From assembly GCA_902800045.1 (NCBI GenBank), contig CADCCZ010000005.1, positions 171,966-235,965 of the forward strand: DNA of 64,000 bases, given 5' to 3'. The notes below the pieces were generated by a model, which was not told the DNA's origin, searched no databases, and saw only the letters and a program-made list of their open reading frames with translations. Below, in pieces: positions 18,337 to 31,932 of this stretch; positions within the stretch are counted from its first letter, which is position 1; each line of letters begins with the position of its first letter. Origin of the DNA: an uncultured Bacteroidia bacterium. Its GTDB lineage: Bacteria > Bacteroidota > Bacteroidia > Bacteroidales > ML635J-15. Made by a program: the position numbers and the translations under genes.

Positions 18337-18431
18337 GCTGACGCCTGTTTCAATGCCTTCGGCGTTTCTAAGTTTCAATGGCTACGCCGTTTCTAGGTTT
18401 CTTGGGCTAAAGCCCGTTTCTGGGTTTCAGG
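18337..18431 (-). repeat. Mini-hairpin repeat array (reverse orientation)
   Basis: Read on the minus strand this is a series of AGAAAC or TTGAAAC spacers with small inverted repeats: GGGCTTTAGCCC, GGCGTAGCC, GCCGAAGGC and GGCGTCAGCC. It belongs to the family at 26.7, 29.2 and 29.8 kb. It begins at the base after the mgtE stop codon. Confidence 0.75.
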
Positions 18432-18484
18432 GGTGAGGCGCTAAATGTCTTAAATATCAGAGGCAAAACATTTCGTGGACATCA

Positions 18485-25794: not shown

Positions 25795-26565
25795 CTAAAA
25801 CTTCAAATGCTTTACCGACGAACCGCCCCTCTTGATAATCCTCAACGAATCTATACCTATTTTTAAATGGTCGTGAACAAACTGCTCGGTAACCTTCTTG
25901 TCGCTCGCCTCGGTTTTTACACCCGACGACACCATAGGCTGGTCGCTTACAAGCAACAAGGCACCGCACGGAATCTCGTTTGCAAAGCCAACAATGAAAA
26001 TCGTTGCCGTCTCCATATCCACAGCCATTGCACGCGTTTTTATAAGGTATTTCTTGAAACGCTCGTCGTACTCCCACACGCGGCGGTTGGTGGTGAACAC
26101 CGTTCCCGTCCAGTAGTCGTGACCGTTGTCGCGGATAGATGTAGAAACGGCTCGCTGCAACATAAACGCCGGCAGTGCAGGCACCTCGGGCGGCAGGTAG
26201 TCGTTCGACGTACCTTCGCTACGGATGGCGGCAATCGGTAGAATCAAATCGCCGAGCTTGTTCTTTGCCTTCAACCCGCCGCATTTGCCAAGAAACAGCA
26301 CAGCCTTTGGCGAAACTGCACTCAGCAAATCCATGATTATCGCGGCATTAGGACTTCCCATACCAAAATTTATTATTGTTATGCCATCAACTGTGGCACT
26401 AGGCATATTGCGGTCGAGCCCATCTACCGGAACATTGTTCCACTCGGCAAACAAATCAACATACAACTGGAAGTTCGTGAGAAGTATATACTCACCGAAA
26501 CTTTCCAACGTTTTCCCCGTATATCTTGGTAGCCAGTCGCTTACAATTTCTTCTTTCGTTTTCAT
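25795..26565 (-). CDS. amn: AMP nucleosidase (short Bacteroidetes type)
   Basis: 256 residues from the ATG at 26565. A longer frame to 26616 starts upstream of the -7 box and is rejected. The protein is of the nucleoside phosphorylase fold: NFGMGSPNAAIIMDLL, FLGKCGGLK, AVDMETATIFIVGFA and LLVSDQPM. These match the AMP nucleosidase branch, which splits AMP into adenine and ribose 5-phosphate. A uridine-phosphorylase-like activity is the main alternative. Confidence 0.85.
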   Translation of the reverse strand: MKTKEEIVSDWLPRYTGKTLESFGEYILLTNFQLYVDLFAEWNNVPVDGLDRNMPSATVDGITIINFGMGSPNAAIIMDLLSAVSPKAVLFLGKCGGLKAKNKLGDLILPIAAIRSEGTSNDYLPPEVPALPAFMLQRAVSTSIRDNGHDYWTGTVFTTNRRVWEYDERFKKYLIKTRAMAVDMETATIFIVGFANEIPCGALLLVSDQPMVSSGVKTEASDKKVTEQFVHDHLKIGIDSLRIIKRGGSSVKHLKF

Positions 26566-26581
26566 ATTCAAAAACTTTTTA

Positions 26582-26589
26582 CAAAGATA
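26582..26589 (-). promoter_or_regulatory. -7 promoter box (minus strand) for amn
   Basis: Reads TATCTTTG on the minus strand, 16 nt from the chosen ATG. It fixes the start at 26565. Confidence 0.65.
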
Positions 26590-26707
26590 CAATAATATTT
26601 TAGATTGACGACACAATTGACGATTTTTTGAACAAAAACGCCACGCACAACGTTTCTATATTGTTATGTCGCGGCATGCCACGACGCAACAGCAGAAACA
26701 GCATAGC

Positions 26708-26953
26708 GACAAACGCCGCAGGCATTTAAACGGCGAAGCCATTGAAACAGCGAAGCGAGAAACGGCGTAGCCATTGAAACGGCGTAGCCATTGAAACGGC
26801 GTAGCCATTGAAACGTGCGAAGCCATTGAAACGTGCGAAGCACATAGAACGGCGAAGCCATAGAAACAGCGAAGCGAGAAACGGCGTAGCCATTGAAACG
26901 GCGAAGCCATAGAAACGGCTTTAGCCACACAAACAGCGAAACCCCTATCCCTC
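26708..26953 (+). repeat. Mini-hairpin repeat array, about 14 units
   Basis: Tandem units of 16-18 nt of the form AAAC, then a small inverted repeat, then ATTG or ATAG. The cores are GGCGTAGCC (four or more), GGCGAAGCC, GCCGCAGGC, GTGCGAAGCAC and AGCGAAGCG; most contain GCGNAGC. The array fills the middle of the 489-nt gap between amn and the gene at 27055. The frames that run through it are repetitive and not credible as genes. Confidence 0.85.
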
Positions 26954-27054: not shown

Positions 27055-29013
27055 ATGAGAATAAAGAATTTCACAATTTTCACTGCAATTATTGCAATTT
27101 TTGCTTTAACAACCCCTCAAAACACATACTCACAGGTATATCAATTCGAAAACCCAGGTTTCGAACAATGGGACAACAATAGTGCCACTGAAGAACCTAC
27201 TGGCTGGAACTCGTATCCGTCGGCAAACTGCACAATGTGGGTAGGATGTAGCAGCGCAAAAGCAAGAAGACACGAACGTTCGAACAACGTTCGCCCTGGT
27301 TCGACCGGACAATATTCGTGCCGCATATACTCGACCAGCGTGCTCGGTGTCGTTGCAAACGGAGCCCTTACAAGCGGCCAAATGCAACTTGCTTCTCTTA
27401 ACACAAGCAGTTCCGAAAACGGAAACAGAACTTTGAAAGATAACAATGATTTCAACCACCGTCTGAATGCAAAGCCAGATTCAATAGTTTTCTGGGCAAA
27501 GGTTAACAACGCTAGCAACGCTTCTGAAGCATGCTGCCACCTTTACATTCACGACAATTATAACCTACAGGACCCACTGGCAGGAAATCAGGCTGGATAC
27601 GAATCACATATTGTAGGTAAAGTTCCATCGTACAACTTCACCAATGTTACAGGTGGTGTATCTGTTGACAACAGCGGATGGCGCCGCCATTCATCTCCTA
27701 TATATTACGATGGATGCCCATCGAACGACCCGCAGTTTGTACTTGTAACATTCTCAACCAACTACCAGGCAATGGCTGGTAGCGCTGGCGACGAACTCTT
27801 CATCGACGATATCGAGTTCATCTACAATGCAAACTTGTCATCGATAACCGTAAATGGCACACCTATTCCAAACTTTAACCAGAATACTACCGAATATTAT
27901 GTTGACGTTGAATGCGGTGCCACAAACTACATTTCGGCAACTACCGCCTCGCCACGCGCTGCATACACAACATCACTTTCGGCAGACGGACTGACAGCTA
28001 CAATAAACGTAAGCCACGGCGACAAGTCGAAGACATACACCGTTCACTACCACCCTGCAATGACAACCCAGATTGCCGACCAAATCTGCAAGGGTGACTC
28101 GTACAGCCAGAACGGATTCTCCTTGCCAACTCAGGATGCTGCTGGAGTTTTCAACTTCAACAACACCTACCAACTTGCAGGCGGATGCGACTCGGTTGTC
28201 GAACTTAGCCTTACTGTAAACCCGACATACAACACAAACGTCGACTTAACAATCTGCTCTACAGCTACATACGACTTCTACGGACAGATATTAGACCAGC
28301 CGGGACAATACTATAAGACATTAACCAGCCAGCAAGGATGCGACAGCATAATTACGCTAAACCTTAATGTTGACAGCTACTATCAGGTCAACCTTAGCGA
28401 GCACATCTGCGAAGGCGACATGTCGGCAACACCAGGATTCGAAGGCAGAATTGATGCAGGAATCGATACACTATTCCTTGTTGCAACCAACAACTGCGAC
28501 AGCCTTGTATTGTTTTACCTCGAAGTCGGCAGAATCGATAACGTAGAACTCCTCGACAGCGTCGAAGTCGATACCGAATACTCCAACTACGGATTCGATC
28601 TTGCCGCAATACACGACGACGGCGAATATACATTTACCAACACTCTGGTAAACAACGAAGGCTGCGACTCAATCGTAACCCTTACCCTCAAGGTTTTGCC
28701 TAAGCCTGTAATCCCAGAACCCGAAGTAGTTGAAACTCCCGACGAAATCAGCTTCGAAGTATTCCCCTCGCCAGCATCGGGACAAGTAACCGTAAGAGCC
28801 AACTACGACGTCGCTGGCGCTATGGACACTTACGAATACATGATCTACGACGAACTTGGCAACTTTATGGACAAGGGCTACATCAACAGCAAGGACACCG
28901 TTCTCGACATTTCAAAGTACTACAGCGGATATTACTACATTAAGGTACTTTACGGCAACACTTTGAAAGAACAGAAGAAACGCAAGGCCATAAAGTTTGT
29001 GGTTGCAAACTAA
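27055..29013 (+). CDS. T9SS-sorted protein with PCMD-like N-terminal domain
   Basis: 652 residues. Signal peptide to about residue 26 (TYSQ). Residues about 30-265 resemble the putative carbohydrate metabolism domain (PCMD): FENPGFEQWDN, then a WAKVNN-type beta-sandwich ending DELFIDDIEFIY. Three cysteine-containing repeats follow (about 340-565), each ending GCDSVVEL or GCDSIITL. The C-terminus (about 575-652; FEVFPSPASGQVTV, then YYSGYYYIKVLYG) is a T9SS sorting domain of another subtype than the 47-56 kb genes. It is probably a surface carbohydrate-binding or structural protein. A weak promoter-like GACCTTTG lies at 27019. Confidence 0.82.
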   Translation: MRIKNFTIFTAIIAIFALTTPQNTYSQVYQFENPGFEQWDNNSATEEPTGWNSYPSANCTMWVGCSSAKARRHERSNNVRPGSTGQYSCRIYSTSVLGVVANGALTSGQMQLASLNTSSSENGNRTLKDNNDFNHRLNAKPDSIVFWAKVNNASNASEACCHLYIHDNYNLQDPLAGNQAGYESHIVGKVPSYNFTNVTGGVSVDNSGWRRHSSPIYYDGCPSNDPQFVLVTFSTNYQAMAGSAGDELFIDDIEFIYNANLSSITVNGTPIPNFNQNTTEYYVDVECGATNYISATTASPRAAYTTSLSADGLTATINVSHGDKSKTYTVHYHPAMTTQIADQICKGDSYSQNGFSLPTQDAAGVFNFNNTYQLAGGCDSVVELSLTVNPTYNTNVDLTICSTATYDFYGQILDQPGQYYKTLTSQQGCDSIITLNLNVDSYYQVNLSEHICEGDMSATPGFEGRIDAGIDTLFLVATNNCDSLVLFYLEVGRIDNVELLDSVEVDTEYSNYGFDLAAIHDDGEYTFTNTLVNNEGCDSIVTLTLKVLPKPVIPEPEVVETPDEISFEVFPSPASGQVTVRANYDVAGAMDTYEYMIYDELGNFMDKGYINSKDTVLDISKYYSGYYYIKVLYGNTLKEQKKRKAIKFVVAN

Positions 29014-29169: not shown

Positions 29170-29340
29170 GAAACGGCGAAGCCTCAGAAACGTGAAACCC
29201 AGAAACGGGCGTAGCCCATCAAACGCCATAGGCATTCAAACCCAAAAACGGGCGAAGCCCATAGAAACGGCGCAGCCATCAAACGCCGAAGCCCTCAACG
29301 AAGTTAACCTTTAGCTCAGCGTAAGCTAAACCCAGAAACT
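29170..29340 (+). repeat. Mini-hairpin array left of rnpB
   Basis: Cores GGCGAAGCC, GGGCGTAGCCC, GCCATAGGC, GGGCGAAGCCC, GGCGCAGCC and AACGAAGTT are separated by AGAAAC or TCAAAC spacers. Bases 29202-29307 align with 29823-29927 on the other side of rnpB; the last 30 nt are identical. Confidence 0.85.
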
Positions 29341-29404: not shown

Positions 29405-29731
29405 CCCGAGTAGGTCAGTCTATCGCGTTGCCGCAAGGTAATGAGGAAAGTCCGGACAGCACAGGGCATTGCGCTCCTGAAATAGGAGAAGTCTGCGAAG
29501 GTTTGGCCGCGGAGAAGAGAACGACTTCCTTGGCGACAAGGTAAAGGTGAGAAGGTGGAGTAAGAGCCCACCGGTGGCGGTGGCGACACCGTCAGCCGTC
29601 CGCCCCGCAAGCTGCAAGTTCATGTATATCGGCGCTACAGGGTCGCCCGCCCGAGCCGAGGGGTAGAATGCACAGATAAATGATAGACAGCATCACACGA
29701 TGCCACAGAATTCGGCTTACGGCCTACTCGC
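29405..29731 (+). ncRNA. rnpB: RNase P RNA (class A)
   Basis: The catalytic RNA that trims the 5' leader of tRNA precursors. The conserved GAGGAAAGTCCGGACA lies near the 5' end and ACAGAATTCGGCTTA near the 3' end. The terminal stem P1 is visible as CGAGTAGGTC (29407-29416) with GGCCTACTCG (29721-29730). The internal GGGTAGAATGCACAGATAAA region is also typical. A T-run follows at 29732. The gene is framed by two homologous mini-hairpin arrays. Confidence 0.97.
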
Positions 29732-29770
29732 TTTTTTGGGCTAAAAGGCTTGAAGGCTAAAAGCCAATTT

Positions 29771-29820
29771 CAAACAACCATCAAACAACCATCAAACAAC
29801 CTCAAACAACCTCAAACAAT
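29771..29820 (+). repeat. CAAACAAC tandem repeat
   Basis: Five units of 10-11 nt (TCAAACAACCA/TCAAACAACC) directly before the right-hand mini-hairpin array. The same motif occurs in reverse orientation as GTTGTTTGAA pairs at 37070-37091. Confidence 0.75.
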
Positions 29821-29821
29821 T

Positions 29822-29930
29822 AGAAACGGCGAAGCCATCAAACGCCGCAGGCATTCAAACCCAGAAACGGGCGAAGCCCACTCAAACGGCGTCAGCCATC
29901 AAACGCCGAAGCCCTCAACGAAGTTAAACG
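29822..29930 (+). repeat. Mini-hairpin array right of rnpB
   Basis: Cores GGCGAAGCC, GCCGCAGGC, GGGCGAAGCCC, GGCGTCAGCC and AACGAAGTT. It is a diverged direct copy of 29202-29307. Confidence 0.85.
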
Positions 29931-30029: not shown

Positions 30030-31703
30030 ATGAAAAAGTTTACATTTTTAATGATTGCAATCCTCGTAGCATCTATGAGTTTTGCACAACAACAGGTACA
30101 ATTGAGAAACAGAACTGCTATTGTTCCGTCTCATAAGTCTTTACAAACCTCATTACAAGCAAAGGCAACAAGAACTGTAATCTTTACTGAAGATTTTGAA
30201 AGCGGTATGCCAACAGGTTGGGCAACAGTAGATAGCGATGGTGACGGATTCAACTGGGAATCTCACATCAACACAGGATCGGGCAACTTTGAAGCACACT
30301 CAGGTGATGGTATTTTAACATCAGCAAGCTATGATAATGATAATGGCGTTGCTCTCACTCCCGACAACTGGGTTATCACTCCTGCTATTGAATTACCAGC
30401 AACAACTGATCCTATCATGTTGACATTCTATGTTTGCGGACAAGATGCTTCATATGCAGGAGAACATTATGGCGTATATATTTCGACAGGCGACAATCAA
30501 ACTGATTTAACTTCATTTGTTTGCCTTGGACAGGAAACTATAGACGCAAATGGTGGAAGCGGATTAACAAGAGAGTCTGGCGCATATGGTGAAAAGAACG
30601 TTGACCTCACTTCATACGCAAACCAAACAGTATACATTGCCTTCCGTCACTTCAACTGCACCGATATGTTCTACTTGAACCTTGACGATGTAAGCGTTAA
30701 CACACTTTCAGCATGTACAACTCCTATGAATCCAAACACTACTGACATCACTTACACAAGCGCAACATTAAATTGGACAGGTTTCTCAGATAGCTACAAT
30801 GTTCGTTATAGAGCATTAACTGCAACAATATATGAAAACTTTGAAAATGGTATTCCTGCAACATGGACAACTATTGATGCTGACGCTGATGGAAACAATT
30901 GGTTGGCTGTAAGTGAAATACCTACCGTATATACCTCTTATTCTCAGGTTCCTGCTTGGGCACATGAAGGTAACGATGCTGCAACAAGTCCTTCATACGC
31001 TAATGGTGCTGGCGCATTTTCAAGCGACCAGTGGCTCATTACACCTCAGGTTGACTTAGGTGGTTTGTTGATGTTTTATGCAACAAGTGCATATGCTGAC
31101 GAGTATGAAGTATTGCTATCAACTACAGGAACAGATATTTCTGACTTTACTACCACCCTCAAGACTATGACCGCTGCATCTACTACATGGGATGAAATCT
31201 CTATCGACTTGAGTTCTTATGCTGGACAGCAGGGCTACATTGCTATACATCATGTATTCGAAGATGGTTATTTCCTAATCATTGATGATTTCGGCATTTA
31301 TACTATTGGAGAATGGGTTGAAGCTAATGCAACAGAAGCTACTCTCGCTCTCAATAACCTAACTGATGGCACAACATATGAATGGCAGGTACGTGGCGTA
31401 TGCGAAGGCGACGAAACAACAGATTGGAGCGCTTCTGTATCATTCACAACTCCTATTTTAGTTTCTATCGATGCAGCAGAAGAAATCGCTAATATCGCTG
31501 TATATCCTAACCCAACTAAGGACATAGTAACTATCGCTAACGCTGAAGGTAAGAACATCGTTATCGTTAACTCTCTCGGTCAGGTTGTTGCTAACATCGA
31601 AAACGCTGCAGCTAACCAGACTATCGACGTTGCTAACTTCGCAAACGGAACCTACTTCGTAAAGGTTGACGCAGAAGTTGTAAAGCTCAACGTTGTAAAG
31701 TAG
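30030..31703 (+). CDS. T9SS-sorted protein with two cleaved-adhesin domains
   Basis: 557 residues. Signal peptide MKKFTFLMIAILVASMSFAQ. Two cleaved-adhesin/choice-of-anchor J domains lie at about 52-230 (EDFESGMPTGWATVDSDGDG, GEKNVDLTSYANQTVYIAFR) and 270-430 (ENFENGIPATW). They are joined and followed by FN3-like segments. The C-terminal sorting domain (about 485-557) carries IAVYPNPTKDIVTI and ends GTYFVKVDAEVVKLNVVK. Adhesin J domains bind cell-surface or matrix ligands in Porphyromonas. The leader element of the 47-52 kb paralogs is absent here. Confidence 0.87.
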   Translation: MKKFTFLMIAILVASMSFAQQQVQLRNRTAIVPSHKSLQTSLQAKATRTVIFTEDFESGMPTGWATVDSDGDGFNWESHINTGSGNFEAHSGDGILTSASYDNDNGVALTPDNWVITPAIELPATTDPIMLTFYVCGQDASYAGEHYGVYISTGDNQTDLTSFVCLGQETIDANGGSGLTRESGAYGEKNVDLTSYANQTVYIAFRHFNCTDMFYLNLDDVSVNTLSACTTPMNPNTTDITYTSATLNWTGFSDSYNVRYRALTATIYENFENGIPATWTTIDADADGNNWLAVSEIPTVYTSYSQVPAWAHEGNDAATSPSYANGAGAFSSDQWLITPQVDLGGLLMFYATSAYADEYEVLLSTTGTDISDFTTTLKTMTAASTTWDEISIDLSSYAGQQGYIAIHHVFEDGYFLIIDDFGIYTIGEWVEANATEATLALNNLTDGTTYEWQVRGVCEGDETTDWSASVSFTTPILVSIDAAEEIANIAVYPNPTKDIVTIANAEGKNIVIVNSLGQVVANIENAAANQTIDVANFANGTYFVKVDAEVVKLNVVK

Positions 31704-31801: not shown

Positions 31802-31920
31802 TAATTGTCCATTGTCCATTGTCCATTGTCCATTGTCAATTGTCCATTGTTAATTGTCCATTGTTAATTGTCCATTGTCAATTGTCCATTGTCAATTGTC
31901 CATTGTTAATTGTCCATTGT
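31802..31920 (+). repeat. Heptamer tandem repeat, 17 units
   Basis: Seventeen consecutive 7-nt units (CCATTGT, CAATTGT or TAATTGT) with no interruption. The array ends 4 nt before the recR -7 box, so it fills the whole upstream promoter region and offers a TTG every 7 bp. Confidence 0.92.
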
Positions 31921-31924
31921 TAAT

Positions 31925-31932
31925 TATCTTTG
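31925..31932 (+). promoter_or_regulatory. -7 promoter box of recR
   Basis: TATCTTTG ends only 4 nt before the ATG at 31937, so the transcript should be leaderless or nearly so. The -33 TTG would be 31903-31905, inside the heptamer array, with 19 nt between TTG and the -7 box. Confidence 0.7.

Follow-up and report, generated by a model that had tools for sequence, protein, structure and literature searches.

AAAC-tagged arrays of GNA-loop mini-hairpins in a Bacteroidales clade: a putative family of ultra-short, REP-like non-coding elements

Short genomic hairpins and how the arrays compare

Among the known short extragenic palindromes are the REPs, which carry a GTAG or CGTC (GTAG/GTGG) tag and are associated with TnpA-REP/RAYT proteins (PMC3733652, PMC6006769). 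They are short, extragenic, clade-specific and present in many copies, and each hairpin has at its 5' foot an unpaired tetranucleotide that is constant. Their palindromes span 20-40 bp with stems of at least 7 bp, are arranged in inverted doublets (BIME/REPIN) and flank the cognate RAYT gene. At a much smaller scale, a GNA loop on a stem closed by C-G forms the extraordinarily stable DNA mini-hairpin d(GCGNAGC) (Hirao, Yoshizawa, as cited in PMC4686876), which is known from oligonucleotides, stability having been shown for GCGAAGC (PMC4686876). The d(cGNNAg) tetraloops likewise form stable DNA mini-hairpins (Nakano et al. 2002, as cited in PMC2984261). Perfect DNA hairpins are also made and kept by quasipalindrome or template-switch mutation (PMC8794818, PMC7202029), which is a mutation process rather than a repeat family and on its own leaves dispersal unexplained. 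Bacterial minisatellites (VNTRs) are tandem and vary in length among relatives, and CRISPR arrays combine repeats of 24-48 bp with unique, regular spacers and cas genes. Mobile hairpins of organelles are short, dispersed and intergenic, and differ in presence or absence among relatives; we know of no enzyme that acts on them. They include the mitochondrial double-hairpin elements (Paquin et al. 2000, as cited in PMC7218506).

Here we describe arrays of mini-hairpins found in a 64,000-nucleotide stretch of DNA (the window, meaning the whole stretch that was analysed) and elsewhere in the same genome. Like REPs, these arrays consist of short, high-copy, extragenic and clade-specific hairpins, with a constant tetranucleotide 5' of the hairpin. 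However, the tag is AAAC, the stems are of 3-4 bp, the layout is one of head-to-tail arrays of many unlike units, and no cognate RAYT was found. As these four defining REP features fail, the arrays are REP-like in architecture and not canonical REPs. In loop, closing pair and stem length they match the d(GCGNAGC) and d(cGNNAg) mini-hairpins, which here form a genomic repeat family known from sequence. In contrast to organelle mobile hairpins, they are single mini-hairpins in tagged tandem arrays on a bacterial chromosome; unlike minisatellites, they have neighbours that are seldom identical and tend to differ in stem class, with units sharing fold more than sequence; and, as opposed to CRISPR arrays, their units are of 15-19 nt with recurring spacers of 3-5 nt. 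A literature search of open-access PMC found no prior description of these arrays. The largest inverted-repeat survey that we found, of 118,019 genomes, required arms of at least 10 bp (PMC13155455), so that this class of mini-hairpins is invisible to it. The arrays probably belong to the known short extragenic palindromes as a variant, with a mechanism that is open to test.

Anatomy, location and enrichment of the arrays

The unit consists of AAAC, a mini-hairpin and a spacer of 3-5 nt (e.g. ATTG, ATTC, ATAG or ACAG), and is repeated head to tail on one strand; closely spaced arrays of opposite orientation are isolated and confined to few loci. The frequent 17-nt period corresponds to 8 nt of linker plus a 9-nt hairpin. 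The hairpin is optional, with hairpin-free tokens such as TTAG, CCAG and CTAG scattered among the hairpin units. Where present, it is 7-12 nt long, with a stem of 3-4 bp closed by C-G (226 of 230 hairpin units) and a loop of the form GNA (GAA, GCA, GTA) or GNNA (GTCA, GCCA, GTTA), TTTA being the exception to this rule. With such loops, C-G closure and at least two G-C pairs in the stem, the cores are of the d(cGNAg)/d(cGNNAg) type, in line with the d(GCGNAGC) hairpin that the first-pass annotation had named. The stem classes are discrete and few, namely GGC, GCC, GGGC and GTGC, each with complementary arms, along with an AGC class that pairs via GCGNAGC only. A table of 5' against 3' arms over the arrays of the genome is nearly diagonal, with few chimeras. 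Stem, loop and spacer combine almost freely, their pairwise associations being weak (~0.2 bits over the null), and hence the hairpin behaves as a module. As separate observations, GCC-stem units have three-base loops only, and GGA loops, though valid GNA loops, are nearly absent from units of this genome and its relatives: there are none among its own units, and GGA units were found in one relative.

The focal array comprises 15 AAAC-tagged units with the GNA strand as the plus strand; the divergent genes on its two sides encode AMP nucleosidase and a protein that carries a secretion sorting domain (Table 1). Its AAAC tokens begin at 26696, and Tandem Repeats Finder gives 12.4 copies of period 17 and a secondary period of 49; higher-order periods in the arrays are 49 and 75 nt. 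The unit with GCC-GCA-GGC recurs in the orthologous arrays of the relatives G266 and G265, and in that of G264 with one arm change, while the last complete hairpin, GGCTTTAGCC, lies in an end unit that is conserved across orthologous arrays. The first-pass annotation was right that an array exists here, but had placed it at 26708-26953; its units of 16-18 nt are tandemly repeated, but range from 15 to 19 nt; its inverted repeat was given as 9-11 nt, but some hairpins have just 7 nt (GCGAAGC); and its three-base GNA loop is joined by the four-base loops TTTA, GTCA, GCCA and GTTA. The related arrays that it had listed at 18337, 29170 and 29822 are real and all intergenic. The first begins at the stop codon of an mgtE-type gene; the second is missing from the same place in G256 and is shorter in G268.

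Table 1. Arrays, hairpins and neighbouring features, with sites of a dispersed repeat that ends at arrays
Feature	Position	Strand	Basis
Focal array	26690..26942	+	sequence, TRF period 17, unit parsing
Hairpin GCC-GCA-GGC (GCC stem class)	26715..26723	+	sequence, orthologs
Hairpin GGC-GAA-GCC (GGC stem class)	26732..26740	+	core scan
Further GNA cores, focal array	26750, 26765, 26782, 26799, 26817, 26835, 26852, 26869, 26884, 26901	+	core scan
Hairpin GGC-TTTA-GCC (GGCTTTAGCC)	26917..26926	+	sequence, orthologs
AMP nucleosidase, flanking gene	25795..26616	-	NCBIfam NF005500, 428 bits
Flanking gene, Por_Secre_tail secretion sorting domain	27055..29013	+	Pfam PF18962, barely over cut-off
Related array	18337..18432	-	sequence, ortholog panel
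Related array, just upstream of rnpB	29170..29339	+	sequence, ortholog panel
rnpB, RNase P RNA class A; neighbour outside arrays	29407..29734	+	Rfam RF00010, 191.4 bits
Related array, 3' of rnpB and 5' of gene 30030-31703	29822..29929	+	sequence
CCTACCGAAGCATTGTCCCTAACGGGACAGGAGACAGATAATGCCAC-core repeat sites	G000:C4:280900-283100, G000:C1:1211404-1214416, L295, L298, L039

Going by crude ORF calls, a convergent gene at many loci has its stop codon right against the 3' end of the GNA strand, and genes that end toward the 5' side of an array usually have their stop ~45-250 nt away by heuristic gene calls. We treat this abutment as a lead. Across 20 sampled stretches the orientation of the GNA strand shows a weak opposition to the G-rich strand by GC skew, with too few loci for significance.

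Other repeats occur in the same surroundings. Within the window, an intergenic tandem array of ATTGTCAATTGTCC lies at 31804-31925 (8.7 copies, 96% match), and tandem TCAAACAACCA lies at 29770-29819 (4.7 copies, 97% match), immediately before the array at 29822; the clade is rich in low-complexity intergenic arrays, including AAGGCTAACAGGC and TTGAACTTTGAAC words. A longer dispersed repeat with the core CCTACCGAAGCATTGTCCCTAACGGGACAGGAGACAGATAATGCCAC repeatedly ends exactly at an array start. At L039 and G000:C2:276800-278000 the loop of a GGCGTAGCC unit holds a longer hairpin-like element, CTTCGACTGTGCTCAGTACAA, flanked on either side by GTA, which looks like an insertion with duplication; elements of that kind at L055 look nested.

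The 13-mer AAACGGCGNAGCC has 100 matches in the 3.2-Mb genome, and its reversed-pattern control has none. Loops were counted in an unbiased 304-kb sample, made up of 240 kb of stretches at fixed intervals and the window, and selection by the AAACGGCGNAGCC pattern was thereby avoided. In this sample we observed 58 intergenic c(GNA)g hairpins with stems of at least 3 bp versus 6.0 in dinucleotide shuffles (9.7-fold), a count that the first-pass annotation had called for. GNA loops with another closing pair reached 1.4x over shuffles, the remaining loops ~1.05-1.10x, c(GNNA) loops 2.3x and c(TTTA) loops 4.6x, the last from small counts. The c(GAA)g, c(GCA)g and c(GTA)g hairpins are among the most over-represented combinations of loop and closing pair, with the largest ratios by far among the frequent ones. 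An array-free congener has 4 intergenic c(GNA)g hairpins against 2.4 expected (1.7-fold), and in the window their density per 10 kb is 36.8 between genes versus 3.1 within genes. Genome-wide, 73.7% of 312 array units (13-20 nt) have a perfect stem of at least 3 bp, as against 42.2% (sd 2.1) with 3' parts swapped among units of equal length and 11% with letters shuffled; the cores are thus far more palindromic than shuffled ones, and arrays lie on most contigs as well as in related species. The array pattern is thus not due to chance: it extends across the genome, is specific to certain loops and turns over between relatives. In some genomes the mirrored control hairpin CCGANGCGG is itself not rare (17 in G387, 11 in G453), and because of this we do not take phylum-wide totals as proof.

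The first-pass annotation had further noted that stem arms change together. Matched arms and the specificity of loop and closing pair bear this out, but in place of free covariation there are few discrete classes, and consequently few independent compensatory events within the clade. The same loops with other linkers and other stems in other lineages are stronger evidence than arm changes within the clade.

Distribution and turnover

Among 247 genomes of the order, strong enrichment of the 13-mer is confined to the genus of the genome under study. Within the genus 13 genomes have 32-120 copies, one has 7 and the other 12 have 0-2. Comparison at a shared gene gives 83-95% identity to this genome for the array-rich genomes found and ~65-69% for the poor ones, which is consistent with the carriers forming one clade. 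This clade belongs to the Bacteroidales, is mostly from the rumen and has dozens of intergenic arrays per genome. Similar arrays with different linkers occur in Litoribacter, in a Chitinophagales MAG and in genus g243, another Bacteroidota genus. Those of Litoribacter (genome G545, which we infer to be of this genus) have linkers that often end in TAANC, and include a GACTGC-GCA-GCAGTC hairpin; those of g243 have ACGGC, ACGC and ACC stems and a constant CTCGC linker. These analogous arrays in unrelated lineages suggest that the single-strand fold, and not the sequence, is what is kept. Pattern matches in MAGs of Bifidobacteriaceae, Chloroflexia, Oscillospiraceae and Synergistaceae look by eye like unrelated in-frame protein repeats. 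A Polyangiaceae match was set aside as a possible mis-binning, being at the very start of a contig with a spacer like that of the genus under study.

Array length varies between related species; the first-pass annotation had proposed such a comparison among strains. In the sister genome G266 the flanks are ~90-98% identical, yet orthologous arrays often share their ends only; inner units have been replaced, duplicated or lost in AAAC-bounded blocks, and a few loci are unchanged. The array at 18337 contains a 17-nt unit, GCCGAAGGCATTGAAAC, that is unlike its neighbours and has no counterpart in G266 or in the more distant G253. This would be a novel gain of a single unit, the sole polarised case, although the pattern could equally have come from two independent deletions between GAAAC repeats. 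At C3:113700 both arms of an orthologous unit have changed (AGC-GTAA-GCT here, GGC-GTAA-GCC in G266), where conversion is possible since both stem versions exist elsewhere, and at C1:824278 a TTTA loop stands against GCA in an otherwise identical orthologous unit.

Neighbouring units of the same stem class are fewer than expected in this genome (26 versus 47.6), in G266 (28 versus 51.2) and in other congeners (7 versus 14.2), and unit identity at lag 1 is 1.9% versus 1.15% for random pairs. Block duplications are present at lags 2-8, and point to ordinary recombination being also at work. Long exact matches between loci are barely above random reshuffling of units. The avoidance of same-class neighbours and the paucity of matches between loci speak against simple slippage by one unit, and also against the copying of blocks from locus to locus. 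Taken together, the turnover data argue that units are drawn from a common pool and added, and that blocks then recombine, even as the avoidance could be survivorship, with identical neighbours being deleted fast.

Possible origins of the arrays and their significance

The reading that we favour, tentatively and at somewhat short of an even chance, is that the arrays are a clade-specific family of ultra-short, REP-like non-coding elements that propagate via a single-strand hairpin. The unit of propagation would be one AAAC-tagged mini-hairpin, with a 3-4 bp stem, a c(GNA)g, c(GNNA)g or c(TTTA)g loop and a 3-5 nt spacer. Arrays would grow by single units or by small blocks bounded by AAAC, and recombination would duplicate or remove blocks of 2-8 units already present. 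The hairpin would be kept because it folds in a single-stranded DNA stage of propagation: copying would be restricted to loops stable on a 3-bp stem, and the two arms would travel as one module. This reading draws on an enrichment that is specific to loop and closing pair and absent from the array-free congener, on arms matched as modules around loops that are stable in DNA, on the gain of GCCGAAGGCATTGAAAC, the avoidance of same-class neighbours and the scarcity of copying between loci, and on the analogous arrays with other linkers elsewhere. The single-strand intermediate and the acting enzyme are what we infer; against the reading, no such enzyme was found and no Y1 class occurs in all carriers. 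Also weighing against it are the alternative explanations for the GCCGAAGGCATTGAAAC gain and for the avoidance, the block duplications, and the lack of excess stability when the whole array is folded with generic nearest-neighbour energies. The first-pass annotation had argued that selection or copying acts on the fold, and the data do suggest that a single-strand fold is kept, but not that a Y1 enzyme is the agent. A broader version, which we consider rather unlikely, is that of a general, undescribed class of selfish DNA of ~17 nt that has arisen repeatedly in Bacteroidota, its sole cross-lineage feature being the single-stranded c(GNA)g fold, in which a host DNA-processing activity would copy and insert hairpins singly after a short unpaired A-rich tag.

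Mutational maintenance is another explanation, though a doubtful one: the arrays would be minisatellites in which quasipalindrome template switching copies arm onto arm, leaving the fold a by-product with neither a mobile unit nor a function. Perfect hairpins are known products of template switching, which also repairs them (PMC8794818) and would account for the double-arm change at C3:113700. The terminal hairpin at 18337, AGGC-GTCA-GCCT, draws part of one arm from bases of the host stop codon, just as template switching would produce, and the block duplications and deletions between sister species fit this reading as well. Alone, however, it leaves unexplained the vocabulary of stems, loops and spacers common to unlinked loci, the constant AAAC tag and the novel unit between unlike neighbours, and the avoidance of same-class neighbours counts against it.

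A neutral origin, in which slippage and unequal recombination spread tandem repeats whose palindromes are incidental to one founder, appears improbable. The tandem layout, the periods of 49 and 75 nt, the variation in length between species and the many other low-complexity intergenic arrays of the genome are all as such repeats would have them. Nevertheless, several matched-arm stem classes under one loop rule, as seen in the arm table, strain this account, as do the loop- and closing-pair-specific enrichment, the analogous arrays elsewhere and the few identical neighbours.

Mobilisation as REPs by a RAYT, with AAAC in the role of the unpaired GTAG tetranucleotide, is very unlikely. The layout is the same, the genome does encode a RAYT (93.7 bits versus the NCBIfam cut-off of 80), and the ~250-aa RAYT class was seen in seven genomes, all of which carry arrays. 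However, G254 and G268, both array-rich and essentially complete, lack that class, and IS200-like TnpA is missing from G000 and G081. By presence/absence and clustering no Y1 cluster is common to all carriers, and the RAYT gene flanks fetched from seven genomes contain no AAAC units. Instead, GTAG/GTGG-type REP candidates occur at Y1 loci, on C6 and C1 here and at one Litoribacter Y1 locus. Thus, of the REP-associated (Y1) transposase suggested by the first-pass annotation as a partner, the gene exists, but neither a shared Y1 class nor flanking units do. The Y1 route is unlikely as the driver; an ancestral enzyme may have been lost.

The REP candidates at these Y1 loci merit a description of their own. 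At L337, in the Litoribacter-like genome, two GTAG-tagged REPs, GTAGTTCTCCCAGGTCTCTGACCTGGGAG and a near copy, lie by a 185-aa Y1 gene and are distinct from the mini-hairpin arrays of that genome. In G000 and G265 the RAYT reading frame itself contains a GTGG-tagged hairpin, GTGGTTCGCAGACTTCCAGTCTGCG (L070 near 1325, also L220), as described for TnpA-REP subclass 2.4.

Also very unlikely are RNA-level elements, i.e. 3'-UTR hairpins that stabilise or process mRNA: arrays at many loci do begin at a gene stop codon and the minus strand of the focal array as RNA folds better than shuffles (z -2.39), but the plus strand does no better than shuffles, the mRNA in the stop-codon arrangement carries the TNC strand and not the GNA one, the focal array lies between divergent genes, and the four-base loops (GTCA, GCCA, GTTA, TTTA) are almost never of the RNA-type GNRA. 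The loop types, and the strand of the abutting gene's mRNA opposite to the GNA strand, would favour a fold in DNA. Nearest-neighbour folding of the whole array gives no excess stability except for the RNA minus strand, though generic energy models may not credit the special stability of GNA loops.

If the arrays do propagate as tagged single-strand hairpins, they would be among the smallest palindromic genomic repeats with a signature of propagation through a DNA fold, and would represent a bulk natural occurrence of a hairpin known mainly from oligonucleotide chemistry. A loop-aware screen could reveal how widespread such arrays are, and the dozens of replicate arrays in each genome would offer a test of whether hairpin arms are kept up by copying, as in template switching, or by selection.
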